Shown: piece by piece, positions 374 through 28,012 of the stretch
Layout of the letters: the number at the start of each line of letters is the position of its first letter
Numbering within the stretch: the first letter of the stretch is position 1
From: a virus
DNA: 38,481 nucleotides
Strand: one strand, 5' to 3'
Virus record (IMG/VR): IMGVR_UViG_3300029319_000156
Span: 1 to 38,481 of that record
Notes under the pieces: model-generated
What the model saw: the letters and a program-made list of their open reading frames with translations, nothing else
What the model was told of the DNA's origin: nothing
Databases searched by the model: none
Program-made: the position numbers and the translations under genes

Positions 374-2566
374 TCATATATCTAATTTTAATTTAAATAT
401 ATATTCATCAACTTCGCGCTTTTTCAGCGGTGTAGCCAATTTAGCGACTGCAATAAGATTTTTGTCTTTATCGTAAATGCCGATACTAGAAATAAAAGTT
501 TGCTTAGAAAAGGGCTCATCATATCCTTTGTATGAGCCGCTAACTATATTTTTATATTTAACATTTGGATCTTCAACATAAGATACAGATGATGATATCT
601 GATTAGAGCCGCTAATCAGCCCAGGCCAAGCGTAAGAAGTCATGTTGTTCGAATGATTGAGATCTGCCTTTCCAGCGTAGGCAAACATAGTCACAACTGA
701 CGTATGCTGCACACCTTCAAACTCTAACGAATAAGCAGAATTAATCAACCTATCCGATGGTACCCCTGTGTCTCCCCAATGTGCCCAAGAGGCTGTTGTA
801 GCCACACCAAGCTGGTCGTAGTTTTCTGTATGGCCCTCGCCAAACCCCTTGTAACCATCTGCCAAGCAACTTATAGTCGTAGAAACCCGACTAGGCGTTG
901 TATCAGACATAGGGCTCCAAGCTGGAATGCCGTTGTTAGAATTATAGTAAACTTGCTTGTCTGCTGAAAATTGGTTTTCAAAATTCCAGTAAGCAACTAT
1001 AGGCGCGGTGAGATGCCCCGCTCGCAGCTGTTTATCTAGGGCAATATACAACGAATGTTTTGTTATATCCATAGGACAGCCTTTATTGTAAAGCTCTAAA
1101 ACGCCTTTAGGAGGCAGCGGTGTATTCCATATGGCTACTTCATTTATTCTGCCATCATAATAAATAAATGCATTCTCGCTGTCTCGACGCGCTCCTATTA
1201 ACAAATGCTTGTTGCCTCCAAGAGAGGCATCGCCATCTGCGCCGCCTGCTAGTTTTGAGCCAGGTTGAACGCTGCCGGCTTCAACACCATTAATATAAAT
1301 TTTCATCAAGTCAAGCATATGATTGTTTACAAGTGTAACCAACTTCCAAGTACCATCAGCTACATTTGCTGAAGATGTAACACTAGCATCTCCAGAGTGC
1401 CCAACTAGTTTATTAGACTCAACCGATAATGCATACTGTCTTACATAGCTACCATCATCGCTTGGCCCAGAAAGGCACACAATTGGACCTGACTGAGAAG
1501 CAGTTAAGTTGATCCAAGCAGACAAAGCAAAACCATCTTTTGTGGGATCTAAATTTAAGAATTCTGGTATGCCTTCAGATGTTATCATTTCTGTTTTAGA
1601 ATCTTGCCCCAAGTAGTCGATAAAGTTATTACCTTGATAGGCGACTTGATTTTTTACTATAGCCTCTTTTTGTTCAGGCCCAAAAGAGGGCTTAGTCATA
1701 ATAACAGCCTCTCCAGATGGCGATCCCATATTTATAAAATGTTTAACTGCAACGGTTGCATTCTTCAGGGGAGGCTTTTTATATACTTCATTAGTAATTG
1801 CTAGATAATCATTTCCATCAAATTCTAAATCAAAAGTAGTTTTATACACTGGCGGACTGTACAGAAAAGCAAAACCCTCGTTATACAAAACAACACCAAC
1901 ATTTGAACCAGAATAATAAGAGCTAGAGGGGAAAGTTTGAATCAAGCTGCCATTTTTATAAATGTCTTGCGCACGCGCAGCTAAAGAGCCCGAAATAAAA
2001 AATTTAAAATCAACACTTCCTTTTTTTATTGAAGATCCATAAAAAATAGATGGTATGAAAATAATATTTAATTCATCTTTTGTATAATCTCTGTATGAAG
2101 ATGAAATTTGATAGTGCCTATTAAGTGGAGTATATCTTTTGAGCGTATTGCGAAGTGCTTCAACTTCGGTCCTGTATTGTTTTGAGTTTTCTAGAATAAA
2201 ATCATATCCATTTTCAGCGTAATATTTTCTAGAAATACTCGCAGATAAAGGGTATGACCCTGTTATAGTATCGCCATACGAAAAATCAAAATTAAATTGA
2301 TCTGTTGTGATTGTCTTGAAGCTTGTTAGGCTAGTAGACTTTTTGATAAATGGATGTATTAGTTGATCTTGCTGTCTATCAACATTGTACTCATACAACG
2401 TAGTATGCCCCACTGGGACATGCGTTATGTTAGCTGTCTGTGCGCCACTAATCTCTGGAGTTTGATTATAATAAACATTGCCACTATAAATTAAAAATTC
2501 AGACTTAGGGTTTAGCTTTAATTCATTATGAAGAATATCATTTTCTGAGAATCTGTAGTATGGCAT
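374..2566 (-). CDS. Tail structural protein with inserted LamG (ConA-like) domain
   Basis: A 730-residue protein, likely a virion tail, baseplate or fibre component. A LamG/concanavalin-A-like jellyroll is visible at about residues 340-500: FALSAWINL opens it, then DGTWKLVTLV, KIYINGVEAG, HLLIGARR and INEVAIWNTPL, the classic order of LamG strands. These folds often bind glycans. The parts outside the jellyroll match the neighbouring 362-residue protein: residues about 130-238 (IIFIPS, SIKKGS, GVVLYNEGFAFLY) and 609-730 (LNHSNN, SSIGIYDKDKNLIAVAKLATP). It therefore looks like a paralogue with roughly 370 residues inserted. The start ATG lies 12 bp after the upstream stop and has only an A-rich leader without a recognisable Shine-Dalgarno, so translation may depend on coupling. 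No signal peptide or membrane segment is seen. Glycan binding is inferred, not shown. Confidence 0.85.
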   Translation of the reverse strand: MPYYRFSENDILHNELKLNPKSEFLIYSGNVYYNQTPEISGAQTANITHVPVGHTTLYEYNVDRQQDQLIHPFIKKSTSLTSFKTITTDQFNFDFSYGDTITGSYPLSASISRKYYAENGYDFILENSKQYRTEVEALRNTLKRYTPLNRHYQISSSYRDYTKDELNIIFIPSIFYGSSIKKGSVDFKFFISGSLAARAQDIYKNGSLIQTFPSSSYYSGSNVGVVLYNEGFAFLYSPPVYKTTFDLEFDGNDYLAITNEVYKKPPLKNATVAVKHFINMGSPSGEAVIMTKPSFGPEQKEAIVKNQVAYQGNNFIDYLGQDSKTEMITSEGIPEFLNLDPTKDGFALSAWINLTASQSGPIVCLSGPSDDGSYVRQYALSVESNKLVGHSGDASVTSSANVADGTWKLVTLVNNHMLDLMKIYINGVEAGSVQPGSKLAGGADGDASLGGNKHLLIGARRDSENAFIYYDGRINEVAIWNTPLPPKGVLELYNKGCPMDITKHSLYIALDKQLRAGHLTAPIVAYWNFENQFSADKQVYYNSNNGIPAWSPMSDTTPSRVSTTISCLADGYKGFGEGHTENYDQLGVATTASWAHWGDTGVPSDRLINSAYSLEFEGVQHTSVVTMFAYAGKADLNHSNNMTSYAWPGLISGSNQISSSVSYVEDPNVKYKNIVSGSYKGYDEPFSKQTFISSIGIYDKDKNLIAVAKLATPLKKREVDEYIFKLKLDI

Positions 2567-2578
2567 TGTTTTTTCATT

Positions 2579-3667
2579 TTAGTAATCTAATCTAACTCTG
2601 AATGTTAATTCGGTTGTTGGATCTTTTCTGATAGGCTCTGATAATTTAGCTACAGCTAAAAGCTCGTTATCTGCACTGTAAAGGCCAATGCTTGTAATGT
2701 AAGAGACAGGAGTGTCCTCTCCCTTGCTCTTCACAACTATTTGGCTAGAAGATAAGTAAGTGGGATTGCTACTGTAATTAAATTCGTTATGATTTGCCCT
2801 ACAGAAATAGATTGTTGAATTAAGCTCTGTCGTATTGTTGAAAGAAATGTTCTTAACACGAGACCTAAATGAGTCAACGGCGCCTGTAATTGAAGAAGCT
2901 GTTAAAACATTTGTTACTGTCTCGTTGGCGGCGCTATGGCCAAAAGCACTAGCTGCAAAATTGCTAAATACAGAAGCTGTAATAACGGCTATTCCAGCTT
3001 GATAAAAAATCAAACCTGCGGAAACTGCGCCCTGATGGACTCCAGCGTTCATTGTAAAGTGGCCATCCGAACTTGAGTTGAAGGTCTTAAGTATACCATA
3101 TTCACCAGCTGGCGAATTAATTCTGAAATCATTTTGAGCGTTTGTGTCTCTAAGCTCTAAGAAGTGCGCGTTGGTGGTGCCGACATCATGCATACCTCCG
3201 GTTAAAAGTGTAAGAGAAAATGTACCTTTTTGAATTTCGTCTTTTGACAACATCCTAGAAAAGTTCAAGAAGAAAACTTCGTTAAGCTGATCATCAGCTG
3301 CGGTTGCAAAATTACCATCCTTATCAAATAGACGAATTGTTGATTTGCCTGTAGAGTCAAAAGAATAGCCCATTAAAGTCTGTGCCATTTGATAATAGAG
3401 ATTGACTTTTTTATCATTCTGGACACTGGTAGAAGAAGATAAGGAAGCCGTACTATATCCAAGTGTAATATCATATAGATGATTAGCAGAGGAACTTAAG
3501 AACGGATAATCAAAAACACTCTGGAACATACCATGAGAATAGTTTTTGATATTTGAATCAGCATAAGTGCCAGATGTCAGACCACCAGTCAGCGGTATAG
3601 CTTCGTGCAACAAGGTCTTTGAAGTGACCATATCATTGTTTAGAAAAGTTTTAAAAGTTGTAGCCAT
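2579..3667 (-). CDS. Tail structural protein, paralogue of the LamG protein
   Basis: A 362-residue protein, probably a virion structural component. Its C-terminal third (about residues 270-362) contains FNYSSNPTYL and SYITSIGLYSADNELLAVAKLSEP, which align with the end of the 730-residue protein encoded next. A middle part (VFFLNFS, DEIQKGTFSLTLLTGG, GLIFYQAGIAVIT; residues 130-230) aligns with residues about 165-236 of that protein. Between the two shared blocks this version has only about 45 residues and no LamG domain, so it represents the compact form of the family. I recall the C-terminal pattern from other large phage tail proteins, but the function is not known to me. Shine-Dalgarno AAGGAAG (3674-3680) lies 6 bp before the ATG and 5 bp after the previous stop, which supports the start and co-translation with the upstream gene. 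Confidence 0.83.
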   Translation of the reverse strand: MATTFKTFLNNDMVTSKTLLHEAIPLTGGLTSGTYADSNIKNYSHGMFQSVFDYPFLSSSANHLYDITLGYSTASLSSSTSVQNDKKVNLYYQMAQTLMGYSFDSTGKSTIRLFDKDGNFATAADDQLNEVFFLNFSRMLSKDEIQKGTFSLTLLTGGMHDVGTTNAHFLELRDTNAQNDFRINSPAGEYGILKTFNSSSDGHFTMNAGVHQGAVSAGLIFYQAGIAVITASVFSNFAASAFGHSAANETVTNVLTASSITGAVDSFRSRVKNISFNNTTELNSTIYFCRANHNEFNYSSNPTYLSSSQIVVKSKGEDTPVSYITSIGLYSADNELLAVAKLSEPIRKDPTTELTFRVRLDY

Positions 3668-3685: not shown

Positions 3686-4678
3686 TTATACGCTTTTGAT
3701 GAATCTAACCGGGATATCTACTGAATATCCTGTTGTCGCACCAGTAACTTTAACAGTGCTATCGATAAACTTTACATTAGCAGTCTGTGTGCCGCCAAGA
3801 TTTAGTGTTGAAGTTGTGCCACCACCTAGAGTATTGAATAGGAAATCGCTGGTGTTTAATGAAACTGATGCAGCGATTTTAAAAGTTACATATGTTCCCA
3901 ATGGTCCTTCCATATTGGTGTTGGTGTAGCTATTGTTGTTAAAAACAACTGAGTTGCCAGAACTACGATTTAATCCAGCTAAATCACCAACATAGTAGAC
4001 GCCTGTCGCGCCAGAATATCCCCCTTTCGATAAATAGTAAGTGGCTATGTTGTCATCATCAACATAACTAACGGGGGTTGGGCTACCGTCGCCTGTGACT
4101 AGTCGACCTAAGCGATTATCAATTTGCACTATATATTGGTTTTCTTTTAGATCAGGATCTAGTGCAAATGCTTGAGATATTTTATTTGTGTCTAATCCTT
4201 GATCTAGTTGAATAAATTTGCCTATGTCATCAGTTATGCCTGGCCTTACACCGCGAAGTACGCCTTTGCTAGTCGCGTTATCGCCATCTAACGGAGTAAG
4301 TGCATCTTCTGTTGCAACAGTTGTGCAAACAACATACATATTCGTAAAATTAGTTGCTGTGCAAAATGGTGCCATTGGAGATTGTTTAATAATAGGCATA
4401 AAGAGCAAATCAGTTCTAGGAATAGTTACAAGTTTAGAATGCATTGAAGACGCATTATTAGAAAACGCCTCCAAAACGGGTGTTTGTAAAATTTTAAGAT
4501 CGTAATAGGCAGATCCGCTGGTGTGGTTTTTTTCATACAATTCATAGTTAATTTCATCATCACCGAAAGCAAATTTGGTGATTTTAAAACTACCGTTTCC
4601 TTTTGCTAAACGAAAACGACCAGTGTCTGTAAGAACTGCATCTAGAATAATATCTCCTGAATTATCTAAGAATGACAT
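3686..4678 (-). CDS. Phage structural protein with LTxxGRxxLxxG N-terminal module
   Basis: A 330-residue protein of the tail module. The N-terminus (residues 10-48) reads IILDAVLTDTGRFRLAKG, then FKITKFAFGDDEINY. The same layout occurs in the 396-residue protein at 12380-13570, with the LT and GR pairs at identical residue numbers (16-17 and 20-21). The family is one I recall seeing in other phage structural clusters, but without an assigned function. The C-terminal half is rich in Gly, Ser and Thr (for example TLGGGTTSTLNLGG) and looks like beta-structure, ending in VDIPVRFIKSV. There are no membrane segments. Shine-Dalgarno AAAGGAGC (4685-4692) is well placed 6 bp upstream of the ATG. A 55-bp AT-rich gap separates it from the preceding gene, the second largest gap in the window. 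Confidence 0.82.
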   Translation of the reverse strand: MSFLDNSGDIILDAVLTDTGRFRLAKGNGSFKITKFAFGDDEINYELYEKNHTSGSAYYDLKILQTPVLEAFSNNASSMHSKLVTIPRTDLLFMPIIKQSPMAPFCTATNFTNMYVVCTTVATEDALTPLDGDNATSKGVLRGVRPGITDDIGKFIQLDQGLDTNKISQAFALDPDLKENQYIVQIDNRLGRLVTGDGSPTPVSYVDDDNIATYYLSKGGYSGATGVYYVGDLAGLNRSSGNSVVFNNNSYTNTNMEGPLGTYVTFKIAASVSLNTSDFLFNTLGGGTTSTLNLGGTQTANVKFIDSTVKVTGATTGYSVDIPVRFIKSV

Positions 4679-13581: not shown

Positions 13582-16500
13582 CTACACATCTCTGTTCCTA
13601 TCTCGCACTGTTTTAAGTACTAAACTTACACCTACAGTTGGGTCCTCTTCGTTTTTACCTTGATCGCTTTGATAGCCTCCATTTTGAGGCCCGCCTGCGA
13701 AGCCGCCAACAAACTCTCCAGATGCACCAGGCAAACTAGCTTGTTCTTCGGGCCGCATTCCAGTAGACTCAGATCGCTGGGGTGGAGGTCCTTGCGTTGG
13801 GGGTTCCTCTGGCACGCCACGGTCAGGTGGCACATAAAGGCCGCTTTTGGGAGCTACTCCAGGATCATCGTAGTCAAAGGGCCTAAAATCTAGTTCGCCT
13901 TCGCCGCCAGGACCGGTAGAATCTGGCCTACTGCCAGGAGTCAATGTTATGCCCGCGTTCATCTTAACTAGCTCGACCATAGAAAAGAAATCGTATGGCC
14001 AATTATAACCATAACTGTTGACAGTAGGATCAAGACCTGTAATCGCATCCCATGGCCTATACTCTGGCTCATCGGATGTCTTTGGTGTTATTGAAGCATA
14101 ATCTTTTAAAGCTCTTTGCTTTACCTTGAACACCATCCATCTAATATCTTTCTTTGGAAAATTAAATGATTTATATCCTGCCGAAAGACCAAAAAAGTCA
14201 TGTATAAACAAATCGTGATCAATTGTGGATACAGACAGCTTTGGCTCAGGTATATCCATTAATGTTCTTGGAGGTAAGTTTTGCCATATCAAGCCTAAGT
14301 CTTCTTGTGTTAAAGAATGTTTAAATTCAAAAAGATACATAATATATGGTGTAATATTTTCATTACCTAAATAATCTAGATGAGGGGGTAAAACATATTT
14401 TTTAAGTTTATTGATTTGATCAATAACTGTTTCAGAAGGAATCACCTTACCACCCTCAGATGGAGGCAGGCCCTCTTCTCCAGGCAGCACACTTAAATCT
14501 TGATTTAAAGCGTATCTAGCCCAATTTCTAGGGAAAGTATAGAAATTCATTTGCCCATCAGTGTCAGTTGTAAAAGGTATTGCCAAGACAGCTTCGTGAA
14601 TAGTTTTTGATTTTGCTACTTTGCCTAATTGAGTTGTTTTTTCATCACGATTTGCTATCTGTGTCAAGATAGCATTTTTTGCATCTACAACGTTGCCATA
14701 TGAAGCTGGGTCTTCAACGTCTTTTGCAACAGCGTCATTATATAAATCTTTATAAGTCTGTATATATTTACTTTCGATTTTGCTATCCAATTTCATTCCA
14801 ATTTTAGCTGCCAAATCTTGAACCTCTACCACATTTTCTCCTGTGAAAGGATTTGTGTATTTTGCCGTGATAAGTTCGGGGGACAAAAGTTGTTTCAAGC
14901 TCTGTCCAACTAGCGCAGGTGTTAATATTGAAAGCTGTACGCCGGTCGATGTTGACACTGGAGGGAAGCCTGGTGCTGTTATGTCAATTGTAAATTTGCC
15001 GCCGTGATCATTTGAATATTGGTGCCACAACCCTTTAGCTACTGCTCCTGATCCACTGTTTGGCATAGTCATTGTTTCGCTCGTTTGAGCACTAAAATCA
15101 AATGTAGGACACTCAAATTTAGGTGCGATGACCCAAGATTCAGAGGCAGCTGCGTCTTCAGCCGTACCAAAACCTACCAAATCTCCAGTTTGGTTTAAAG
15201 TTACAGATCTATAGCCGATCGCCTTTCCTCCAAGATCGACTGATGCAGAAAGCTGCATTGCTGCTTTTGCTGCCAAACTATTTGAATTAGGCGCCCAAGT
15301 CAATTCAAAAGTATTTTGACCCCAATCGTGAGTCATCCAGGGTGCGTCGCATTCTCTTAAGAATGTAATTCTTGCATTTTCAAGAATGTCATCAAGCTCA
15401 ACTGGCCCATCATCTTCAGGGAAAAAATCGATCACAGCAGTGGCCATACCATTGTAATATGGAGGAGTATATGGAGCGTAAGATGCACTATAGCTATTAC
15501 CAGGAATCATGAAGTAATCTGTGTCTGAATGTCCGCTGGCCAAAGAAAAACTAGATGTCGATTCACTGTTCCACATTGCAACTGGTGGGCCAAAAGAAGA
15601 ACCAAAAAAGTCGTGCTTTTTTGCCTGGGGTCGGCCAGGGCCGAATCTCTCATACATCACTATCCTATTTGGAAAATTATCTGTGCTATGAGCTTTTGAT
15701 TTATTAATATCTTTATTTGTATTTAATACTAGCGGCCCGCCGTGCCAATATCCTGAAGCTGCTTTAAAAGTATTTACCTCTTCATCAAATGCATCAGTAT
15801 TATTTATTTCACTTGAATGTAAAACAAGAATCATTCTATACAATGTGTTTGTCTTAAAGCTTCCCCATTCTTTAGCGGGATTTGAGACAAACGTTTTAAG
15901 TCTTGAATCCTCCATAAAAAATTCAACAGATGAAGCCAAAAAATTATTCATAGCCAAATAGTATCGTGGATCTTTTGAATCATTTGCGCGACCAAGCGAT
16001 CCCGTGCTGTCAATACTAGCAGACGAGTGCGGTTCTGAATCAACAACCTTGCCTTCTCCTAAAGTAGAGATTGATTGTATAAACCTGGCCGGCTGCATAA
16101 TTGTTTCAAATGGCAAACGCGCATCAAAGTTATATTTTTTAACACCTGTATTGCTGATTAAGCTTAGAATTCTTGGCGTGCCTTCGTCGTGACCAAGAGC
16201 GCCAAAATTTTGAGATGCACCAGTAATCTCATAATTGCCCGACACCATAATCGGATAATCAACGGCAATTCCAGACTTAATTGTATTAAACAAAATACCT
16301 GGTGCGAATAAAGGAGTAGTTACTGTTCTAAAATTAGCCTGAGTGCCGTGAAGACCAAGTTGATTTCCGTAAGACTGACTGAATAATGTTGCTAATTGAA
16401 GAGTTCTTGTAGCAGGATAAAAACCATCATATGGTAAAAACTTCTTCAATGCCTTGCAGGATAAAGTAATTCTAGATGGATAATGATTGCCTAAATGCTC

Positions 16501-19500
16501 CTCTTCTAAAACTTGAAAATATTTTAAAAAGTCTGTTGTTGAGTAGACATCAACAAAATCTTCATGAAGAATCTCACTACTTCTTTTTGATATATCAGAT
16601 ATAGTAGCCCCTGTAAGCTCTAGCCAGTTTGATGGCTCATCTTCCAGCTTAGTTGGGAAAAACCCAAGTTGCAGATAATCATCAATGTGCTCTGACATTC
16701 TATATTCTGGCACAATCGTATAACCTTGCCCTGCAGCGTTTAGATCCTCGGACCAAGCATCATAACTATCATAGAACGGACCAACGCATTTTTTATTAGA
16801 TTGTCGGTCAATAACAAATTCTAAATTTGCTTGCCGTCCAGCGTCCCAAAAAGTATCGCCTGGATACATAATCTTGCCATCCGAAAAATCTGGCACTCTT
16901 CTATTGTATAAGCAAGCTGCACGAAGACCAGCTGTTTGGCCGTTTGTTCCGCGAAGGTAAGTAAATGCAGTTGACGTTGTTGTGTCACCCAGGCCATGTT
17001 GAAAGAGGTCGCCATTATGAAAAATACAATAATCGTTTTGCAGCTCGCCAGCACCGTCGAGACCACTAAAACCTTTGCCTATTCTTTGATGAGGGTTAAA
17101 CGCGGTTTGATTTCCCACAGCTGCGGACAGGGCGCTTTTATTACTCCCGACAATCTGTGAAGGATCAGTACCTACAAGAACGCTATCTTTGCCATCAGTT
17201 CTAGTAAATTGAGCCCGTGCGTCGAGCGGCCATATGCTTGAATTTGCATTAGGTACTATTCCTTCGCCACCAGAATGCACAGTAACAACAGCATTTAGTG
17301 AATTAGTTCTTGCAAAGAATCCGTTATTTGGTTCAACCCCGCCAACATTGTCATAACCTTGAGATCCTGAATAGTTATATTCATTTCTACCAAAAACAAT
17401 TTTCTCATAACCATACTCAAGAGGTTGTTGGAATCTGACAAGGTACCAATATGGCGCGTCTGTGAATACGTTATATTCACAAACTCTCGCATCTTTCCAA
17501 AATCCAGTTTCAAAATTAGTTCTCATTCTATTCTTTTTTAAGAAAGTATACTTTTCTCTTGGATAGATACATTCTGTATATTCCAAAGAAACCATGCCTC
17601 TGCCTATCTGAAATGTGTCTAGTGGGTTAGCATCGCCAGGCACCAGGGTAGTTAAGTAATAACCTTTAATGTCATCATAAAGTTGAGACGTTTTATTAAA
17701 AGTATTTAACTTTTCATTTAGCAGAACATTTGCAAATGATGTTTGGTTATTGCCGTGGGTGTATCTTAAGACTGTTTGAGTGTTACCTCCATTTTGCTCT
17801 TTTACCAATAAAGTATGCCTAAATGGTTTGTATTTATCGGTCAAAGGAGGCTCAAAAACGTTTGATATAACTCTTTCTCGCAAGGTGCCTTCAATTTGAG
17901 AAATTTGCAGATGAATTTCTTCAACGGTCTTTCCAGCTCCTGCCTCTTGTACTATATAATCAACAATCTCTTGTTGATTGTCTAAATTAAATTTCTTTTC
18001 TTCACTAATAAACGAGATAATGTTGTTTCTTCTGAAGAATCTATTTAAGGGATTTTCACCTGCTCTAATTTGTTTGAAAGAGCTGTAGCCGTAAGGCCCA
18101 TTTCTTTCAAGCATTAAGCCATTAAACAGTATACCACCTCCTGGTGCAGGGGGTGACGATGATGGTAAGCCTGATTTATCATGGCCTGGTATTCCAGCCC
18201 AAAATACAGTAAAAGGCCAAAATGGATTTCCAGGCCCTAAAGATGGAGAAGAAATTCCTGGTCTTCCAAAATTAATTGTATTGAAGTAAGATGGGCGCAC
18301 AGGTAAAAATTTATGAAATGGTGGCGCTACGGTTGTACTAATAGTTGGATCAGTAAAATCTAAAATATTATCGCGTTGTGAAAATCCTGTCAAATTTTTA
18401 TGAACAAACTCAAAAGGTTTGCCATCTATAGGTGTCACTCTCTCTACAGACGAAGTTGCAATAGGATCCGCAATAATCATATTGATTCTTACAAAAGGAT
18501 GATGAATTGTCCCTGCCATTTTGGCGGGAGGGCTAGTCACATAAGCGTGATCAACATCCGCAACATACTCTGCGATTGGCCCGACTCCACCACCAATACT
18601 AGCGATTCCCTGTATTAATGCCGATCTAGATTGGCTTAAAAATGTTATGGCAGGTCGACGTGATGATCCGTATGGTGCTGGAATAGTATTGCCAGCAACC
18701 ATTGCCCCAGAAACAAAGCCACTAGCTGGCGCGTGACCAGAAGCCCTTTCAACAAGATGAAATGGCTGCTGCTGTCCACTATTTCGTATAGTGCTCTCTG
18801 CTGATGCAGTAATCCAAGAATATTGAAAATCAGATCTTGGAATCTCATGAGATATCCATTTGTTGTCGTCGTGCTCAACTGGAGATATTCCGCTTCCAAG
18901 CTGACTTGACAAATCGGCTGTTTCGTTTGTTAATTCCAACCTTCGTAAAGTATTTCTGTTTACTTTATGATAAGATGGCACACCAACACCACCAAAATAT
19001 TCAGCACTAGCTGTTGGTATCGAAGAGGTGCCAAATTGATCAGAATGCACTGTCCATAAGACATCCAATGCGTCGCGCACTGTTGTATTGCGATAGTTCA
19101 TTGAATTATAGACAGAATATGTAGAGGATTTGCCATCCATCGCTCCACGCGACATTACCTCTGGCCCACCAGGTGCAGCAAATCTTTCATTAAAAATAGT
19201 TCTATTTTTTACACCTTTTGTTATTGTAGAAAGATCAGCAGTTCTGGCATTTGCTTTTAAAGCTGTAACAACTGTATTTCTATCTTGTTGACTGAAAGGC
19301 CCATAAAATACATCGTGACTAAACAAATGATGGTCGACAACGCCACTAATAGTGGTTGATGGTGTAAAACTATCTTCTATATCTCCATTTGTAAAGTCAT
19401 CTGCAAAATATTGATTCCTATCTTTCCATAACAAATTGTTGACATCGCGGCCTGTACTTTGAACAACTTCGTAGTTGTTTCTATAATTTCCAATTGTGCC

Positions 19501-22500
19501 CAATAGTCGATTGTGAGAATGCCCAGCGTTTTCTGATCTTCCTGTATAGAGAGGAGAAAGTAAGCTTTGAACCTGACCTTGGTCATCTGTTACATTGCCA
19601 GACATTTTAATATTTTTAATGTTCACTGAGCTTTTAGCTACGTTATCTCTCCTGTAATAACCACGAGCTGCGCCAATATCAATAAAATCTTGATTGCCAG
19701 CGGCAGCGGGGCGCCCGCCTGGCTGCATTAATCTAAGCTCATTGCCTGGGGCACCTTGAAGAGTCCAAGCTTCTGCTCTATTAGCTGAAGAATCAGTTAA
19801 TTTGTTATTTAATGCTTGGTGTCTGTGCTGTGTGCCGCCAACATTTTGCTGAGTGTATGGCCCTTGCATAGGTATCTCGTTGTCGTTACCATATGTGTCA
19901 TGATGGACGTTAGTGATATCTAATGCCTCTGGGATTGAAAAAGCAGTTTTATATCCATTTGAAACAGAGCCGCTATATAAATTAAATGGTAAATTTAAAT
20001 CAGCCTGCTGGCTATCATAGTCTACAGGAATGCCATCTCTAAATCTAGCAATGCTGCCTTGGGCACCAACAGGCTCGCCGTATAGCTTTCTTTTAAGTGG
20101 CACCCTGTAACTTTCCATTATGACTTCTGGGTCGCACTCACAGTAGCTAGCTGTTCCTGGATTATCAGATGGAATTCGAATATAATTTAAAGAACCTGAA
20201 AATTCTCTGGAAAGCGCATATATATAATCTTTTTGCGTATTATTGTGAGATAAATTGTTAGGCCCGCCTTGCAAAATTAAACTTTTTGCAACCTCAAAAT
20301 TAAATGGCTTTGATAAATTTCTGACTACATAATTTGATCCTTGGTATCGCGTACCAGCAAATGTGAGAAAAGTTGGTCGCGAAGAAGATATAACTGTTGT
20401 CAAAGCGGATCTTATACTTTCCTTGTTGGAATCAACAAAGGCATCCCCAGAAGATAGAACAACGCTATCTCTTTCAACTCTATCTTTCCACCATACGCAG
20501 CTATCATTTTGATTGTTTTGATCTAGCGGTGCTCGCCCACAATCATAATCATAAAGCATTTCATTAATACCAAGAAGTATACCTTCGATATCTGGTGCTT
20601 TTGTCTCTACCGTAGGAAACTTGGTCCAATACTTATTTCTTTCAAATACATGACTTTCAATTGTGTCTCCATAGCCAGACAATTGATAAGAACTAGCTGG
20701 TATTAATTGCTGTAACATTCTATCAACAGATGTGTCAAACCATTTATAAAAATTAATATATTTTTCTATATCAGGCGTGTTTTTAACATTTTCAAAAAAC
20801 GCTTGTCGCATTTTTTCTAAAGACTTATACTCTTGACGATATCTGTTGACTGGCTGTCCAATAAGATTGCCAAATTCTCTGACCGTAGCAAGAGTCTTGA
20901 TCATCTCTTCAGATACAGTTTGATACATGCTTTTTTCTATTGCCAACAAATATCTAATTGGCAAAGCTCTAGATGATGGGAAAAATTCATCGTCTTGCTC
21001 CAACACCTTAATCATATCAACACTGCTTAAAATTTCAGGTAGTCTTTGTGCTGCGACTGGTATATAATCAACATCAAAAATGTTAGCGCTGCTAGCGGGA
21101 AAATCAATACCCTTGCCAGTATGGCTACGATATAAAACGTTACCAAGTCCACCTGCTTCTATATATCTGCCGGAAGAGCCAGAAGTTACATCTTGTACTA
21201 TAAATTCGCCTAACGCATTAGAGCCTGAAAGATTACTGAACTCCCAATGCAGCACTAGCGAATCTTTATTGGGAATAAAAATACCTGGTCCTGTCGAAGC
21301 TGCAGCATTCTTATTTCTATCCGCTGCAGATATATTTCTTAATGGATTTAAAACACCATGATTTTCGATATCAAGAGCGTGCTGTCTAAGCTCTTCGTCT
21401 TCTAAATATTTACTCCAAACTCTTGCATTTATAATTCGTGCATCGGATCGATTCACAATACTGCCTGTAAAGTTTGTTCTATGTGCGCCGACAAACAAAC
21501 GAGTAGAGCTTGTCAGTGCTGATATACCGGCTTGTGTAGTCAATGACGAAGACATAGAAAAACTATTTTCTATGATATCAGAGTTTGCATTAAATCCTCT
21601 AAATTCAATTTGATAGTTTCTGTCTGCACTGTGAGAGGCAGAGCCAGTTACTTGAACTAAATCTGCAGTTTCTAAGTTTGTTGGACGAATTGTGACAGAA
21701 AGGTTCCACTTATCGTTATCATATACTTCGTAAAACGGACTTTCGAGGGCGGCTGAAGAATAAACTGAGCCGTTGGTACCCGCTAAAACAAACTTAGCCT
21801 TGGAGGAGCCAATTGCATCTCTAACAGCAAAAACTTGAAAGTTTGCAGGATCGGCTGAATCCCAAGTAAAAATATTTGCTGCTGAATTTTCTTCATGGGT
21901 GTGAACACCAAAAATAGAAGAACTAATGTGCGGGAACTGCCTGAATGGTGGAGTCGCAAGATCTTGCTCTTTTGGGAATAAAACGTTTACTTCATAGAGC
22001 GGCCCAACAGGTATCATTCCTGTATTTGTAGCCATTGATGATGGTGATGGCGAGCCGCTTATATAAGACAAGGAGCTTGAGTCGGTTGGATCTTTTGCCT
22101 GAAAAACTGAGGCAGGATAATTTTCTTTTCTAGAAAAATCTAAAACTTTTCTTTTTCTAGTTAAATATTTAAAATCTTCGCTTATTTCATATGTTAAGTT
22201 GCTAGCATACAGATTGATTTTAAAAAGATCTTCATCTAGCCCTAACGTATGTAGCATTTGTTTTAAAGACTTTTGATTGCCTTTCGATTTATAGATTGAC
22301 GTTAAATTGTTGTAGATATTATCATAGATAAAGTTTTTGACATTATGCACCTTTTCGCTGTAGTTTTTATCTTCGTTTCTATCTAAATATTTTTCTATTT
22401 TTTCTGCATCTCTAAAGAGATCATATGTCATGAATCCCATCGATGATAGTTTTCTATCTGAAAAAGGTGTTGGCTTAAAACTGCCGCTAAGATATTCAAC

Positions 22501-24162
22501 GTCTTTTATCCTGGGCAGCTTTTCAATTAATGTTGACAGTTGGTCTAAATACGACGACATTATTTGAGTTATATTCTTTAAATTTTTCTCAGCGTCATCG
22601 TCGCCTGATAATATCCACTCTGGGAAGTGTGCCCTCATAGAGGTAACATTTTGTCTATCCCATAAACTTCCAGATATTTTAAGATCATTTAAAATACTGA
22701 TATAGCTAGGATTATTAGAATAAATAACAGGATCTCTAAACTCTATGTATCCAGATTCATTTATTGCTGAGCCATGATTTCTTTGGTTGTAAGTTGTGTT
22801 ATATCCAATAAAATTACCATTAGTAACCCTGCCAGAATAATCTAAAATAACTTTATCTTCTGTAGCACTGCCTACTATACCTTCATTAAATTTGTAATAA
22901 ACACCTAAATCCACATTTGATAAGTCACTATTAGTTCCACCACCAACTTGGCTAAACCAAGATCTACCTATTTGTTTTGCTGTTCTTTTTCTTTTCCAAA
23001 ATCTAAACTCATCTATTGATCCAGATATCTTATTCCAGCCTTGGCCATTTGGATTGATTAATGTTCCTGGCTCCACTGCTTTTGATATCCAGGGATGTGC
23101 GACTGAAGATCCAATTGTAGCCACCATACCCGATGTATTTGGCGTGCCGTCAATTGTTATTGGCCCTAGTGATTGTCCAGAAGCTGTTAAAGTTTGTTTA
23201 AAATTGCCATCCATATAGGCAGAAATGTGTAGATCATTACTTTTGTTGTGGAATGTAAACGCATAATGATGCCAATTTCCATCTAGAACAGAAGAGCTTG
23301 GAATCTGAGTGAAAGCTTTTGAATTTTGATAGATAGAAGAAGTTGCGTTGAATCCACGCATAAATGTTTCAGATCCAGAAACGCAATTAACAAAAAACGC
23401 ACCATCATTAGTTGAATTGTAAAAATTCTGAAAGAATAACGTTAGTCGACCATAGCTTCTAGAAGAGCCCGTGATGCCATTCCATAAATCAAATACAACT
23501 GGTGTTGTTGTTGTGGAAGAGCTAAGAGGCCAAGAGCCGGCTGCGTTTTTATACCAAAACTCGACTGTAACACCTCGATCAAAGTCAACATCCAAGTTGG
23601 TACTTCTTAGGGTGTTGACATTAAAAATGTTTGCAGTAGAATCTTCAAATTTAATGTCACCTTTTGGATCTGCGTTTGGTCCACCTTTTATAAAAATGTA
23701 TTCTTTAACACTAGGTTCAGACAATTCTACATGGCCACCCCAGTAAGCAGTGTTAAGATTAGTATCAGTTATGTTGCTGGCGCGTGTACCCCAGCCAACC
23801 GAGCTGGATGCAAAATTTACAAATCCGGTTTTTCTTGGATACTTTTTATCAAAGATAAAATTATCTAAATCACTAGCTTCATTATGCCATTGTTGTCTCT
23901 CTTTTAAGGAGCCATCGTAGGGGTATGTTTTTCTAATGTATGCAAAACTTTTATCATAATATTCTTCTGCGGAGCCATAAAAAGCAAACTTTTCTGGCTT
24001 GTCATATTCAATATTGGGCACATATCTATTTTTAGATATATTCCTCTCTGTCACATACTCTAAGGATTCTAAATCCTCAGTTATAGTATTAACATTTTCA
24101 TTGGAAAGAACATCTATATTTTTTTCTTTCTCAAAAAGTTTTTTTATATCATTGTAGCTCAT
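13582..24162 (-). CDS. Giant (3526-residue) baseplate/tail protein with LamG-like domains
   Basis: One uninterrupted frame of 10.6 kb. A LamG-like jellyroll lies at about residues 195-405 (VTVEFWYKN, DGNWHHYAFTF, ISAYMDGNF, GSIDEFRFWKRKRTA), followed by GVYYKFNEG. A second, more diverged one is at about 750-940 (WNLSVTIRP, LFVGAHRTN, RIINARVWSK). Between them, at about 505-680, is a helical segment containing FPEWIL, LDQLSTLIEKLP and YKSKGNQKSLKQMLHTLGL; the KGxxxSLKxML pattern recalls tail protein I (P2 gpI), the counterpart proposed for T4 gp7. Residues about 1000-3400 are mostly unrecognised. The last 120 residues are rich in Pro, Gly and Glu (for example PEEPPTQGPPPQ) and probably disordered. 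The gene overlaps the end of the preceding gene by 14 bp, with GGAAAAAG as its Shine-Dalgarno. The order gp25, gp6, then this region supports a wedge/outer baseplate or fibre role; the gpI link is tentative. Confidence 0.85.
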   Translation of the reverse strand: MSYNDIKKLFEKEKNIDVLSNENVNTITEDLESLEYVTERNISKNRYVPNIEYDKPEKFAFYGSAEEYYDKSFAYIRKTYPYDGSLKERQQWHNEASDLDNFIFDKKYPRKTGFVNFASSSVGWGTRASNITDTNLNTAYWGGHVELSEPSVKEYIFIKGGPNADPKGDIKFEDSTANIFNVNTLRSTNLDVDFDRGVTVEFWYKNAAGSWPLSSSTTTTPVVFDLWNGITGSSRSYGRLTLFFQNFYNSTNDGAFFVNCVSGSETFMRGFNATSSIYQNSKAFTQIPSSSVLDGNWHHYAFTFHNKSNDLHISAYMDGNFKQTLTASGQSLGPITIDGTPNTSGMVATIGSSVAHPWISKAVEPGTLINPNGQGWNKISGSIDEFRFWKRKRTAKQIGRSWFSQVGGGTNSDLSNVDLGVYYKFNEGIVGSATEDKVILDYSGRVTNGNFIGYNTTYNQRNHGSAINESGYIEFRDPVIYSNNPSYISILNDLKISGSLWDRQNVTSMRAHFPEWILSGDDDAEKNLKNITQIMSSYLDQLSTLIEKLPRIKDVEYLSGSFKPTPFSDRKLSSMGFMTYDLFRDAEKIEKYLDRNEDKNYSEKVHNVKNFIYDNIYNNLTSIYKSKGNQKSLKQMLHTLGLDEDLFKINLYASNLTYEISEDFKYLTRKRKVLDFSRKENYPASVFQAKDPTDSSSLSYISGSPSPSSMATNTGMIPVGPLYEVNVLFPKEQDLATPPFRQFPHISSSIFGVHTHEENSAANIFTWDSADPANFQVFAVRDAIGSSKAKFVLAGTNGSVYSSAALESPFYEVYDNDKWNLSVTIRPTNLETADLVQVTGSASHSADRNYQIEFRGFNANSDIIENSFSMSSSLTTQAGISALTSSTRLFVGAHRTNFTGSIVNRSDARIINARVWSKYLEDEELRQHALDIENHGVLNPLRNISAADRNKNAAASTGPGIFIPNKDSLVLHWEFSNLSGSNALGEFIVQDVTSGSSGRYIEAGGLGNVLYRSHTGKGIDFPASSANIFDVDYIPVAAQRLPEILSSVDMIKVLEQDDEFFPSSRALPIRYLLAIEKSMYQTVSEEMIKTLATVREFGNLIGQPVNRYRQEYKSLEKMRQAFFENVKNTPDIEKYINFYKWFDTSVDRMLQQLIPASSYQLSGYGDTIESHVFERNKYWTKFPTVETKAPDIEGILLGINEMLYDYDCGRAPLDQNNQNDSCVWWKDRVERDSVVLSSGDAFVDSNKESIRSALTTVISSSRPTFLTFAGTRYQGSNYVVRNLSKPFNFEVAKSLILQGGPNNLSHNNTQKDYIYALSREFSGSLNYIRIPSDNPGTASYCECDPEVIMESYRVPLKRKLYGEPVGAQGSIARFRDGIPVDYDSQQADLNLPFNLYSGSVSNGYKTAFSIPEALDITNVHHDTYGNDNEIPMQGPYTQQNVGGTQHRHQALNNKLTDSSANRAEAWTLQGAPGNELRLMQPGGRPAAAGNQDFIDIGAARGYYRRDNVAKSSVNIKNIKMSGNVTDDQGQVQSLLSPLYTGRSENAGHSHNRLLGTIGNYRNNYEVVQSTGRDVNNLLWKDRNQYFADDFTNGDIEDSFTPSTTISGVVDHHLFSHDVFYGPFSQQDRNTVVTALKANARTADLSTITKGVKNRTIFNERFAAPGGPEVMSRGAMDGKSSTYSVYNSMNYRNTTVRDALDVLWTVHSDQFGTSSIPTASAEYFGGVGVPSYHKVNRNTLRRLELTNETADLSSQLGSGISPVEHDDNKWISHEIPRSDFQYSWITASAESTIRNSGQQQPFHLVERASGHAPASGFVSGAMVAGNTIPAPYGSSRRPAITFLSQSRSALIQGIASIGGGVGPIAEYVADVDHAYVTSPPAKMAGTIHHPFVRINMIIADPIATSSVERVTPIDGKPFEFVHKNLTGFSQRDNILDFTDPTISTTVAPPFHKFLPVRPSYFNTINFGRPGISSPSLGPGNPFWPFTVFWAGIPGHDKSGLPSSSPPAPGGGILFNGLMLERNGPYGYSSFKQIRAGENPLNRFFRRNNIISFISEEKKFNLDNQQEIVDYIVQEAGAGKTVEEIHLQISQIEGTLRERVISNVFEPPLTDKYKPFRHTLLVKEQNGGNTQTVLRYTHGNNQTSFANVLLNEKLNTFNKTSQLYDDIKGYYLTTLVPGDANPLDTFQIGRGMVSLEYTECIYPREKYTFLKKNRMRTNFETGFWKDARVCEYNVFTDAPYWYLVRFQQPLEYGYEKIVFGRNEYNYSGSQGYDNVGGVEPNNGFFARTNSLNAVVTVHSGGEGIVPNANSSIWPLDARAQFTRTDGKDSVLVGTDPSQIVGSNKSALSAAVGNQTAFNPHQRIGKGFSGLDGAGELQNDYCIFHNGDLFQHGLGDTTTSTAFTYLRGTNGQTAGLRAACLYNRRVPDFSDGKIMYPGDTFWDAGRQANLEFVIDRQSNKKCVGPFYDSYDAWSEDLNAAGQGYTIVPEYRMSEHIDDYLQLGFFPTKLEDEPSNWLELTGATISDISKRSSEILHEDFVDVYSTTDFLKYFQVLEEEHLGNHYPSRITLSCKALKKFLPYDGFYPATRTLQLATLFSQSYGNQLGLHGTQANFRTVTTPLFAPGILFNTIKSGIAVDYPIMVSGNYEITGASQNFGALGHDEGTPRILSLISNTGVKKYNFDARLPFETIMQPARFIQSISTLGEGKVVDSEPHSSASIDSTGSLGRANDSKDPRYYLAMNNFLASSVEFFMEDSRLKTFVSNPAKEWGSFKTNTLYRMILVLHSSEINNTDAFDEEVNTFKAASGYWHGGPLVLNTNKDINKSKAHSTDNFPNRIVMYERFGPGRPQAKKHDFFGSSFGPPVAMWNSESTSSFSLASGHSDTDYFMIPGNSYSASYAPYTPPYYNGMATAVIDFFPEDDGPVELDDILENARITFLRECDAPWMTHDWGQNTFELTWAPNSNSLAAKAAMQLSASVDLGGKAIGYRSVTLNQTGDLVGFGTAEDAAASESWVIAPKFECPTFDFSAQTSETMTMPNSGSGAVAKGLWHQYSNDHGGKFTIDITAPGFPPVSTSTGVQLSILTPALVGQSLKQLLSPELITAKYTNPFTGENVVEVQDLAAKIGMKLDSKIESKYIQTYKDLYNDAVAKDVEDPASYGNVVDAKNAILTQIANRDEKTTQLGKVAKSKTIHEAVLAIPFTTDTDGQMNFYTFPRNWARYALNQDLSVLPGEEGLPPSEGGKVIPSETVIDQINKLKKYVLPPHLDYLGNENITPYIMYLFEFKHSLTQEDLGLIWQNLPPRTLMDIPEPKLSVSTIDHDLFIHDFFGLSAGYKSFNFPKKDIRWMVFKVKQRALKDYASITPKTSDEPEYRPWDAITGLDPTVNSYGYNWPYDFFSMVELVKMNAGITLTPGSRPDSTGPGGEGELDFRPFDYDDPGVAPKSGLYVPPDRGVPEEPPTQGPPPQRSESTGMRPEEQASLPGASGEFVGGFAGGPQNGGYQSDQGKNEEDPTVGVSLVLKTVRDRNRDV

Positions 24163-25741
24163 CTTTTTCCACTATTCTGAATTTAAATACTTCCGGTTGC
24201 TCTTGGTAATCATCGTTAACTTTATATAAAAATTTAATACCGTACATATAATCAGGCTCCAAGATTGACATATCTAAATCAAAATAGTTTCCAGAGATGT
24301 CGTGAGATAATCTTGTATGTTGCGTGCTGCCTGTCCCATAATTTATTATATCAAAAGAATCTTGCACTCTAAAGAGTTTAAAATATGCATCTTCAACAAT
24401 TGTGTTTTCTGGTTCTGCGCTAGCAACTGTATAAATTGTAGGAGACCAATCTTGTGCCCTGATAAAAACTCTAAAATTGGCTTTCTCGACCACACTATAC
24501 TCTGATTTTAAATTTGTTATTTTTGTTCGATAATTAGTAAAATTATTTACACTAGAGGCATTAAGCGCTGAGGGCTCAATGAAAACAGAGCCAGTGTGCA
24601 CTTCTTTTCCTCCTACTTCCCAAACATCCCAAACATATGTTGTAGTGCCTGATGATGTTAATGCAAATGAAGCGCTGTATATACCAGTTGAAATTCTTGT
24701 AGAAGTAACACTGGTAATATCTAGGTTTGTTGCGGCATGCTTGAGTGTTAGTTGTATATCATTTGGCGAGCTAGTTGTTCCAGAATATAGCTTTAATACT
24801 GGTAAAATAGATGAATTACCGCCAATATCTTTAAGCTGCCCTTTTATATTATTATATAAATACAAGGAGTTTAAATTGTCAGACGCAGGGGCTAAAGAGC
24901 TGCTAAAATAAAAATTGCTTCTATCATCTTTTTTTGAAGAATCCCAGCGTGCTTCAATGATTGGGCGCTTAAAAAAGAATTGCGACCCCCTAGCAAAAAA
25001 TCTTTTTGTGTAGTAAGAACGGGTAGCTCCTGCTGGATTGTGAGGTATTGATCCAGACGTTAAACCACTAGAGCTTGAAAAGAATGCTTCTTGGCTTGAT
25101 GTCAAATATACAGCTAAGCCGTAATTTTGTCTATGCTCTGTTTCTCTACCGTCAAGCCACTCTTCCACCATCGATGTTATATCTACCTCAAGGTCTTCTG
25201 TGCCTTTTTGAATTTTTGCAGTATACATTGGAAAATTGACTCCCGACGCATAAGAAGCTGTATGAAAGTCTCCACCAGGCTCAAGCCAAAACTTAGTAGA
25301 ACTTCTTTTTACCCAATTGCTAGTATCTCTATCTAGATAGTTTTCCATGTCCAATCCAGATCCTTCATTCCAAGATGCTGAAATAGCCTGCACATTAAAA
25401 GTAACATTTGCAGGCACAGTCTCAGAATGCACAGCATTAGAAATTTTTAAGAAAAAGTTTACACTGCCACTATTTGGTATCTTACCATTAAGTCGATCGC
25501 CGTAAATTTGTCCGACGCTAGATCCAGAAACAGGAAATTCTAACAAAACTCTAGATAGCTCAGTTGTTCTAGTATTTTGACCGCTAGCGGAAGAAGAAAA
25601 ACTATTTTGCCCGTAAATAGAAAAAACCTCTAAAATATCAGATGCACCCATATTAGAGCCAGTGCCTCTTGTAGACAAATTTTCTTTAAAAGCGTTTGTT
25701 ATAGTATTATCTTTTGTGGCAATATATCTTTTAATAGCCAT
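24149..25741 (-). CDS. Tail protein with DNRLRE-like beta-domain
   Basis: A 530-residue protein directly after the gp6-like gene. The first 220 residues follow the DNRLRE-type beta-sandwich pattern known from extracellular and cell-wall proteins: LSRVLLEFPV (62-71) for the core strand, VQAISASWNEGSGLD (117-131), VDITSMVEEWLDG (186-198) and NYGLAVYLTSSQEA (206-219). A middle segment (about 290-365, LKLYSG and TTYVWDVWEVGG) looks like a second small beta-sandwich. The C-terminal region contains NYRTKITNLKSEY, AYFKLFRVQDS and ISGNYFDLDMSILEPDYMYG, a pattern I recall from other large-phage baseplate-region proteins. Its ATG overlaps the upstream TAA by one base (TAATG), and its own end overlaps the giant gene by 14 bp. 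This tight coupling suggests a fixed stoichiometry with the baseplate wedge proteins. Carbohydrate binding is possible but not demonstrated. Confidence 0.83.
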   Translation of the reverse strand: MAIKRYIATKDNTITNAFKENLSTRGTGSNMGASDILEVFSIYGQNSFSSSASGQNTRTTELSRVLLEFPVSGSSVGQIYGDRLNGKIPNSGSVNFFLKISNAVHSETVPANVTFNVQAISASWNEGSGLDMENYLDRDTSNWVKRSSTKFWLEPGGDFHTASYASGVNFPMYTAKIQKGTEDLEVDITSMVEEWLDGRETEHRQNYGLAVYLTSSQEAFFSSSSGLTSGSIPHNPAGATRSYYTKRFFARGSQFFFKRPIIEARWDSSKKDDRSNFYFSSSLAPASDNLNSLYLYNNIKGQLKDIGGNSSILPVLKLYSGTTSSPNDIQLTLKHAATNLDITSVTSTRISTGIYSASFALTSSGTTTYVWDVWEVGGKEVHTGSVFIEPSALNASSVNNFTNYRTKITNLKSEYSVVEKANFRVFIRAQDWSPTIYTVASAEPENTIVEDAYFKLFRVQDSFDIINYGTGSTQHTRLSHDISGNYFDLDMSILEPDYMYGIKFLYKVNDDYQEQPEVFKFRIVEKDELQ

Positions 25742-27540
25742 TACTTAATCACCCCTACAATATCAACTGGCTTTAACTTAACTTCTAATATAGAATCAGC
25801 TGGTATAAATAATATTCTACCATCATTGGACATATTTTCTTCAACGTCAAAAAATGTCGTGCTATATCTAGATCCAACTTTGGAAACTATTTCAATATTT
25901 ATTGTATCTAAAACTCCCTCTACATTATTCAACATCTGATATAATTTTGTTATGTATAAAGGCTCGCCAATATCAAAATGACTACTGAAATATTCTATTA
26001 ATTCTACCCTACAAGATTCTAAAGTTTCATACTTATCAAATCCATCTTCAGATGTGACCATAAAATTAACACCAATATTAATAATTTTCGCATCTAAAAT
26101 ATCAATCGTATCACTAATCATTTTATAATCATTAATCCAAAACCTTAAGTTATCTTTTACGGTTCTATTTGTTTTAATTAATCGATCACTTTCGTCGGTT
26201 GATACGACGAATAAATTTAAATTTCTTTTCAATGAATCAGAGTCTTGTAAGACAGTACATCTCTTAACTGTTCCAAACTTTCCAGGCATTCTGTAGACAA
26301 CGCTAACATAGTCTTGAGCAGTTACAGCTCTGTTTTGACTAGCATACGCATCAATTGCATGCCTTTTAATTTCATCAGCGGTTTGAGAAGTAGAATCTCC
26401 AATAATCGGCTCTTCATTAGTACATTCGAAAGATGATAAAACATCCGAAACTTTAGATGGTACCAAGCTAGGCTTGCTAAATCGCACAATTCTATTTGAA
26501 ATGTTATTTACAGTGTTAGTAGCAGCGTTAACATTTTCAGTTGTGTTTGCTCGGTATTTTATTGTTAAAGTTGTATTAGCCGGTGAAACTCCAAGTTTAT
26601 CGGTAGACTTTAAATTTGATGGATCAAAATTTTTACTTGTCGAGTAATTTTTACCATGAGCTTGTAATACAACCTCACTAGCCCTTGTTAAAGGTTCGTT
26701 TGAAATAGATTCATCAGATCCAAAACCAAATTGTAAAAAAGTAATTTCACCTTCTTGTTCAACTGTGAAACGCCTTGGAACTGATTGAGGGCGCAACAAA
26801 ACAGTTGGAGCGTCAGGAGCTGCGTTTGGATTTAGTATTTCTCTATAAACTACATCTTGAGACAAGTAGTCAACTTCAAAATATTCATGCCCTTCTGAAT
26901 CAAAAACACTAACAATTTCAGTTACTCTTAATGCCTCTAGTTCTAATCTTTTAAGCCTTTCAAAATCTCCAACTTGAATTGATTGTGTAAGCAGCTGGCC
27001 AGAAACAACTTGTCCAAAAGATTTTATTGCATAGCTTGTTGGTGCACCAGTATCTTCATCGACTCTAGCAACAACCATTTCATTATTGCCTTTTGAAAAA
27101 TCAACATCTTCTACTAACACAAAGGCTGTGCCTGCATTATTTGCTAATTCAGTTCCTTTTTTTAATATTGGCATATAATCCGAATCTGGACCAAAACCTG
27201 TGGCCATAGCTGGTACAACGCAATAAAAAGAAACAATACCCGTTGACGATGGCGTATCTCTGAATTTATAGCCCATTTGTTTTGCTAATTTAACAATGTT
27301 ATCATATTCAACAGCTGTATCCATAAAGGATTCGTTTGCTTGAAAATCTAAATAAAAAGATAAAACGTCACCAACATAAGACACCAAATCGATCATTAAT
27401 GAGCCAAAACTCGCTTCATTAAAATCTTGATACGTGTTTGGGTAATATCTTCGAGCATGCTCTACCAAGCTCTTTTTAATTGAATTAAATTCGCGATCAG
27501 TATATTTTATTGGTACTTTCTTTTTATTGTGACCTGGCAT
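25741..27540 (-). CDS. Baseplate wedge protein, gp6/J-like
   Basis: A 599-residue baseplate wedge subunit, the T4 gp6 / P2 gpJ family, which forms the ring that ties wedges together around the hub. The family's N-terminal signature is clear: YTDREFNSIKKSL, YPNTYQDFNEASFGSLMIDL (34-53), YVGDVLSFYLDFQANESFM, then an IVKLAKQMGYKF helix. The C-terminal part includes NRAVTAQDYVSVVYRMPG (about 402-419), NLNLFVVS and LRFWINDYKMISDTIDILD, typical of gp6-like proteins of T4-type phages. The length is close to T4 gp6 (660). It follows the gp25-like gene by 59 bp, the same gene pairing as P2 W-J, and is followed with a one-base overlap by the DNRLRE-like protein. Shine-Dalgarno GAGGAA (27547-27552) supports the start. 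This is the most certain functional call in the window. Confidence 0.95.
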   Translation of the reverse strand: MPGHNKKKVPIKYTDREFNSIKKSLVEHARRYYPNTYQDFNEASFGSLMIDLVSYVGDVLSFYLDFQANESFMDTAVEYDNIVKLAKQMGYKFRDTPSSTGIVSFYCVVPAMATGFGPDSDYMPILKKGTELANNAGTAFVLVEDVDFSKGNNEMVVARVDEDTGAPTSYAIKSFGQVVSGQLLTQSIQVGDFERLKRLELEALRVTEIVSVFDSEGHEYFEVDYLSQDVVYREILNPNAAPDAPTVLLRPQSVPRRFTVEQEGEITFLQFGFGSDESISNEPLTRASEVVLQAHGKNYSTSKNFDPSNLKSTDKLGVSPANTTLTIKYRANTTENVNAATNTVNNISNRIVRFSKPSLVPSKVSDVLSSFECTNEEPIIGDSTSQTADEIKRHAIDAYASQNRAVTAQDYVSVVYRMPGKFGTVKRCTVLQDSDSLKRNLNLFVVSTDESDRLIKTNRTVKDNLRFWINDYKMISDTIDILDAKIINIGVNFMVTSEDGFDKYETLESCRVELIEYFSSHFDIGEPLYITKLYQMLNNVEGVLDTINIEIVSKVGSRYSTTFFDVEENMSNDGRILFIPADSILEVKLKPVDIVGVIK

Positions 27541-27599: not shown

Positions 27600-27998
27600 T
27601 TAAAGGACTTCTGGACTTAAGTTAAATTCCAAAGATATTGAATCTAATAAATTTAAAGTCGCTATCTCATATTCAATAATAATGCCAATTGCATTTGGAT
27701 CTCTAACATTATCATAGCTATCGTCAATTACTAATTTTAATATATTGATGTATGGCAAATATTTTCCAACCTGTTGCCGGATATCCGCTTCAATTTTAGA
27801 GTAAGTTATAGGCACTGCACTTTCAAAAAAGTACCTCTGTAGTCCAACCCCAAATGTTGGATCCATAACTCTTTCGCCAGGGATTGTTAATAAAAGCATT
27901 TTTAAATTTTGATTGGCAACCTCACGATAGGTTTGATTTAAGCCTATTCCATCGTTATCATCTATCATTAAAGGCAATTTTGGTGAATATCCTGGCAT
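27600..27998 (-). CDS. Baseplate wedge protein, gp25/GPW-like
   Basis: A 132-residue protein of the gp25 / GPW family, the small wedge subunit related to P2 gpW and type VI secretion TssE that nucleates sheath assembly at the baseplate. Visible marks are the helix NQTYREVANQNLKMLLLT (21-38), the core turn PGERVMDPTFGVGLQRYFFE (40-59) corresponding to the conserved EPR-type loop, and the helix-strand IEADIRQQVGKYLPYINI before IIIEYEI. The length matches the family (T4 gp25 is 132 residues). Its Shine-Dalgarno TAAGGAGAA (28004-28012) contains the stop codon of the upstream giant gene, so the two are translationally linked. The following gene is the gp6-like wedge protein. Confidence 0.93.
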   Translation of the reverse strand: MPGYSPKLPLMIDDNDGIGLNQTYREVANQNLKMLLLTIPGERVMDPTFGVGLQRYFFESAVPITYSKIEADIRQQVGKYLPYINILKLVIDDSYDNVRDPNAIGIIIEYEIATLNLLDSISLEFNLSPEVL

Positions 27999-28003: not shown

Positions 28004-28012
28004 TTCTCCTTA
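28004..28012 (-). promoter_or_regulatory. Ribosome binding site of the gp25-like gene, fused to upstream stop
   Basis: TAAGGAGAA on the minus strand: the first three bases are the stop codon of the 3484-residue gene and the rest is a strong Shine-Dalgarno 5 bp before the gp25 ATG. Ribosomes finishing the giant protein would stop on the initiation region of gp25. Confidence 0.85.

Follow-up and report, generated by a model that had tools for sequence, protein, structure and literature searches.

Two adjacent genes in the tail region of a genome fragment from an uncultivated, marine-type phage raise the question of whether they descend from a common ancestor and, if so, how a LamG domain came to lie within only one of their products. 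The window, i.e., the whole 38.5-kb viral fragment that was analysed (38,481 nucleotides), encodes on its minus strand a 362-residue protein (family B) followed by a 730-residue protein (family A). The initial annotation, whose coordinates for both open reading frames (ORFs) were correct, had read the two as tail paralogues that arose by tandem duplication followed by domain gain, as a route to new receptor binding. The explanation that we regard as probable is that they are ancient tandem paralogues, that a LamG-bearing segment replaced a loop of the downstream one, and that their scaffold displays LamG as an accessory adhesin. The relevant features of the window are the following.

374-2566, minus strand: family A, 730-residue tail-region protein with an inserted LamG domain
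2081-2566, minus strand: N-terminal domain of family A (residues 1-162), with no detectable kinship to the N-terminus of the 362-residue protein
1862-2080, minus strand: middle block of the shared domain in the 730-residue protein (residues 163-235), ending in the hairpin GVVLYNEGFAFL
791-1861, minus strand: insert in the 730-residue protein (residues 236-592), in place of the 19-40 residue loop (TGSWDL...) of the orthologues
1814-1828, minus strand: LEFDG (residues 247-251), within the insert
1106-1543, minus strand: LamG/concanavalin A-like domain PF13385 (residues 342-487)
377-790, minus strand: C-terminal block of the shared domain in the 730-residue protein (residues 593-730), with the motif SIGIYDKDKNLIAVAKL
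713-727, minus strand: LEFEG (residues 614-618), a conserved core strand and no insertion edge
2579-3667, minus strand: family B, 362-residue paralogue
2978-3286, minus strand: middle block of the 362-residue protein (residues 128-230)
2858-2977, minus strand: loop of the 362-residue protein (residues 231-270), homologous to the LamG site, with other insertions in the related loci L216, L238, and L048
2582-2857, minus strand: C-terminal block of the 362-residue protein (residues 271-362)

Domain content and genomic surroundings

The LamG domain recognized in the initial annotation is borne out by Pfam, where PF13385 (Laminin_G_3) matches residues 342-487 over its curated cut-off (56.9 bits versus 27.6, E 4e-15, profile positions 15-148 of 151). 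The 362-residue protein has no Pfam domain over cut-off, and no PHROG family was found for either protein. A and B belong to an uncharacterised tail-region family, found in large tailed phages of marine and fresh water, that has no PHROG or Pfam match of its own. Short PF00047 (ig) matches occur in 46 of 56 B members and are taken as a mere hint of an Ig-like sandwich.

Upstream of the pair lie two baseplate wedge homologues (27600-27998 and the gp6 homologue at 25741-27540), and downstream a RuvC-like ORF, a similar one of which also follows the 730-type gene in L052, L055, L090, and L184. In a neighbouring 330-residue protein (3686-4678, minus strand), residues 14-41 align weakly with the opening portion of the P2 gpH tail fibre domain in a profile comparison (37%, 28 columns); the motif matched by the 362/730 pair comes later in that domain. 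The tail region also holds two ORFs of ~3500 residues, at 28010-38464 and 13582-24162 (minus strand). The latter encodes 3526 residues and has its own LamG-like stretch at ~22969-23430, whose sequence is not close to that of the inserted LamG.

A shared C-terminal scaffold

The relationship between the two proteins was assessed with HHalign on family profiles built from orthologues, the 730-residue protein of the window being left out of its own family; the E-values given are those of single pair comparisons. The profiles align over 206 columns spanning both blocks, with a probability of 99.4% and a pair E-value of 2e-21. When the last 60 columns are cut the match persists at 96.8% (E 2e-10), when 120 are cut at 91.9% (E 7e-7), and the middle block alone matches between the families at 95.9% (E 6e-9). 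Controls comprising ten shuffles of the full profile, ten of the C-terminally cut one, a reversal, and an unrelated neighbour family did not exceed a probability of 1.8%. The homology is thus significant well beyond the last ~40 residues. Direct BLASTP, on the other hand, pairs only the last 50 residues of the two proteins (46% identity, E 2e-10), so that comparing sequence with sequence alone would have spoken against the two shared blocks described in the initial annotation. These do occur in the same order and make up the whole C-terminal half (~205 residues), which is the scaffold common to both proteins, but the kinship ends there, as the N-terminal halves of A and B give no profile match (probability 0.8%).

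The order of strands is the same in both proteins. Given as 730-residue/362-residue protein, it runs IIFIPS/VFFLNFS, KGSV/KGTF, GVVLYN/GLIFYQ, and GFAFL/GIAVI before the loop, and LEFEG.../ISFNN..., SIGIYD/SIGLYS, and then AVAKL past it. In AF2 models of A and B, which were built from separate alignments, the three-state secondary structure agrees at 74% of the aligned residues, whereas shifted controls average 41% and reach at most 60%. Scaffold strands flanking the insert are mostly modelled with a block pLDDT of 80-97, whereas nearly all of residues 253-568 fall below 50 in the 730-residue model, whose alignment contained no homologues of the insert. The structure prediction suggested in the initial annotation therefore recovers one strand order in both models, but the looped-out geometry of LamG is not visible, since the insert is not folded in the AF2 model. 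Support for LamG being looped out of a single fold comes from the sequence and the modelled strand order.

Searches for known folds added little. There is no significant sequence match to solved structures for the A or the B family, and Foldseek and VIA returned nothing significant from the PDB for either model. The sole solved-structure match for the LamG domain is weak (S-layer protein 4qvs, E 0.014), and BFVD contributed a match of low TM-score (E 2e-4) to a phage protein that bears the name concanavalin A-like.

An old gene pair

Among related viral loci that hold both genes, B precedes A on the same strand in 232 of 232. The gap between them is at most 60 bp in 213 of these loci and larger in the other 19 (maximum 1040 bp). 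Four of the larger-gap loci were inspected and carry an extra ORF between the paralogues (L090:5276-6226, L022:5218-5910, L030:7096-7692, and L184:349-834); that of L090 has repeated cysteine motifs and the look of a zinc-binding protein. A scan with the 362-residue protein retrieved 80 viral loci (118 relatives), in almost all of which a 730-type relative follows B. More than 500 relatives exist, of which the best-matching part was examined; because this part was picked by similarity to the query, it should favour relatives bearing LamG at the same site if any existed.

In the marine set, A and B each form their own supported clade (98/98 and 100/99). A matching adjacent pair is present in Immutovirus, and five copies stand in tandem in Microcystis phage Mel-JY01. 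The trees neither establish nor reject a grouping of family A with the downstream copies of these two phages in one clade (AU p 0.39). The fixed pair, the separate clades, and the tandem copies in Immutovirus and Mel-JY01 together indicate that the A/B duplication is ancient and not an event local to the window phage. Tandem duplication followed by domain gain hence stands as an order of events, given the invariable adjacency, the separate clades, and an empty insertion site in 177 orthologues, with the correction that the duplication itself is ancient.

The insert and its empty site

Between the GVVLYNEGF hairpin and an invariant tryptophan (residue 594), 177 730-type orthologues have 19-40 residues (median 24), usually beginning with TGSWDL. 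In the 730-residue protein of the window the same stretch measures 358 residues (length taken from a MAFFT alignment) and the TGSW motif is absent, which indicates replacement of the loop and not just its interruption. L052, the nearest orthologue, has a short loop without LamG, and the complete 730-type orthologues examined do not exceed 582 residues. Judging from this distribution of short loops and the absence of the insert from the nearest relative, the LamG-bearing segment of the 730-residue protein is a derived gain that replaced a short loop. It does lie between the two blocks, as first described, although it extends from residue 236 to ~592 (357 residues) and not from 240 to 608, and it includes residues 236-341 and 488-592 outside LamG.

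The similar sequences LEFDG and LEFEG had been proposed as marks of the insertion boundaries. The left edge of the insert falls 11 residues before LEFDG, and its right edge ~20 residues before LEFEG, which belongs to a conserved strand of the family. The two use different codons, and the longest word common to both edges is 8 bases, which excludes them as boundary repeats. Recombination between them was accordingly rejected as the route of insertion, both being away from the edges and different in DNA. Copying from within the contig was likewise rejected, as the LamG of the 3526-residue ORF scores 32 when aligned with the insert and shuffled sequences average 31. The searches made of viral contigs and phages retrieved nothing related to the insert that would point to a recent donor. 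LamG domains nevertheless occur in each of the 14 related genomes that were searched, usually within giant ORFs (up to 5536 residues), so that donors are at hand even though the insert's own was not found.

Recurrent insertion in the family

Insertion at this position is not confined to the window. Among 169 B members, those of L216 (528 residues) and L238 (506 residues) carry insertions of ~159 and ~102 residues, respectively, in the loop after GIAVI, the homologue of the LamG site in the window. Pfam does not identify either module as LamG. The two are related, and a third module related to both sits in an N-terminal loop of the L065 A protein (blastp E ~1e-6 to 5e-6 within a four-sequence set). 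They have the appearance of a mobile module of ~105-160 residues that occupies different loops of both paralogues (L065:7347-9092, L216:3687-5270, and L238:2871-4388).

A further case is provided by the Mel-JY01-type clade (33 distinct sequences of 571-634 residues, Mel-JY01 included), where LamG was found in 18 of 18 members scanned. It lies between the KKxSV and GNVFY strands, one strand junction before the LamG site of the window. There is no BLAST match between the window LamG and that of the Mel-JY01 type. Since the sites differ and the sequences do not match each other, the simplest reading is that the scaffold took up LamG at least twice, at neighbouring loops. The related Immutovirus-type proteins, by comparison, mostly have 250-400 residues, and two longer ones (546 and 572 residues) are without a Pfam domain.

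Larger forms were also encountered. Proteins of ~1130-1220 residues in L302 (3307-6726), L305 (3055-6708), and L306 (3370-6768) match the 591-residue Mel-JY01 protein in their C-terminal part, with LamG below threshold. In L082 (9823-14848), Mel-JY01 paralogues of 954 and 718 residues have long N-terminal extensions ahead of the scaffold, with no Pfam domain.

Proposed mechanism and alternative explanations

In the proposed mechanism, A and B share a C-terminal β-sandwich scaffold while differing in their N-terminal domains, and a LamG segment of ~357 residues has replaced the loop after the GVVLYNEGF hairpin, leaving the scaffold strands intact. The scaffold would be built into the baseplate or fibre base, from where the loop may hold LamG outward, as an accessory adhesin that would engage glycans of the host surface. 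The gene neighbourhood, the gpH motif, the gp6 rows of the fold search (both described below), and the BFVD match are hints of this arrangement, none of them decisive. The concanavalin-like fold is typical of glycan binding, and new receptor binding through the putative LamG lectin is plausible. The gain may also be real and derived while LamG serves a structural purpose, such as inter-subunit contact or virion decoration, or is near-neutral. This is rather unlikely in our estimate, although LamG-like domains are common in giant ORFs, where a structural role is possible, and many residues of the insert are not LamG. That an entire divergent clade has kept LamG at a site next to this one, and that the fold typically binds glycans, argue against it, though not decisively.

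The remaining explanations concern the origin of the insert or of the shared blocks. That the 730-residue ORF is an assembly chimera, joined with a LamG-coding fragment of another genome, would be in keeping with the lack of any other contig in the collection that matches the insert and with its GC content of 41.4%, in the top 3% of contig windows. This value is, however, within the contig range (maximum 42.8%), and a chimeric join would have had to preserve the reading frame at both ends, hit the boundary between two core strands precisely, and bring in 357 codons free of stops. Paralogues and a sister clade also have insertions in this loop or the one next to it, and an artefact seems quite improbable. 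An ancestral LamG segment lost from the other lineages is very improbable: another clade of the family does have LamG between the same two blocks, but at a different junction (before GNVFY and not after GVVLYNEGF), and all 177 nearer orthologues, L052 included, have the short loop, usually with TGSW. Convergence of β-sandwich motifs, which the short reach of BLASTP and the unmatched N-terminal halves might suggest, is extremely improbable in view of the ordered 206-column profile match against shuffled controls of at most 1.8%, the adjacency of the genes, and the intermediates in Mel-JY01 and Immutovirus that match both proteins.

With ancient paralogy and a derived LamG gain as the preferred reading, a broader proposal can be made, to which we give even chances: this widespread two-gene tail cassette may be an evolvable display scaffold whose neighbouring inter-strand loops repeatedly accept whole domains, so that replacing a loop would alter the surface chemistry of these phages without disturbing the gene pair or the scaffold.

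Significance

Domain mosaicism of phage tail proteins is already established (PMC10684548). What is added here is the A/B family, its empty site, and the recurrence of insertion. Clean cases in which many relatives preserve the empty site, the edge is defined, and homologous loops have been used repeatedly show where a scaffold tolerates insertion. The present one supplies a candidate that can be tested for recognition of the host surface in aquatic phages that are abundant and uncultivated. As a hint at candidate hosts, two of three hits in a genome collection fall in Flavobacteriales bins.

Comparison with known systems

The core of the insert matches Laminin_G_3 (PF13385), a concanavalin A-like lectin domain, over cut-off, but it is embedded in another domain instead of being one link in a series of domains. 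Neither phages nor viral contigs yielded a close sequence relative of the window LamG. Two likenesses to structural tail proteins concern the scaffold. One is a motif of 22-27 columns shared with the P2 gpH-type domain PF12571 (MRELGLYDDAGTLIAVANMAE versus ITSIGLYSADNELLAVAKLSE, HHalign 78-92%), which is N-terminal in gpH and C-terminal in the window proteins, with the remainder of the domain (172 columns) unaligned; no PF12571 match over the Pfam cut-off was present in 56 + 50 family members, the best stray E-value being 0.07 (L216). The other is the C-terminal part of the baseplate wedge protein gp6 of T4 and KP1, which occupies the top Foldseek rows for the 362-residue model at a best E-value of 0.02, below significance (VIA Z 3.9, 102 residues, rmsd 4.2). 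A gp6 homologue is encoded separately in the window (25741-27540).

Counterparts are also found among sequenced phages. Rm378p128 of Rhodothermus phage RM378 (416 residues) has the same C-terminal scaffold as the window proteins, in one detected copy and with no insert. Flavobacterium Immutovirus gp164 and gp165 (337 and 357 residues) are an adjacent pair on the same scaffold, adjoining genes annotated as tail fiber and tail spike; they are hypothetical proteins without LamG and have ~30% identity in the shared part. A parallel to the insertion is offered by Mel-JY01 (WWT39513-WWT39517) and its freshwater relatives, where the same C-terminal scaffold is encoded by tandem genes and the last copy (591 residues) holds LamG between the same two blocks as in the window. 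There, LamG sits one junction earlier throughout the clade; BLAST finds no match between it and the window LamG, which makes a separate capture likely.
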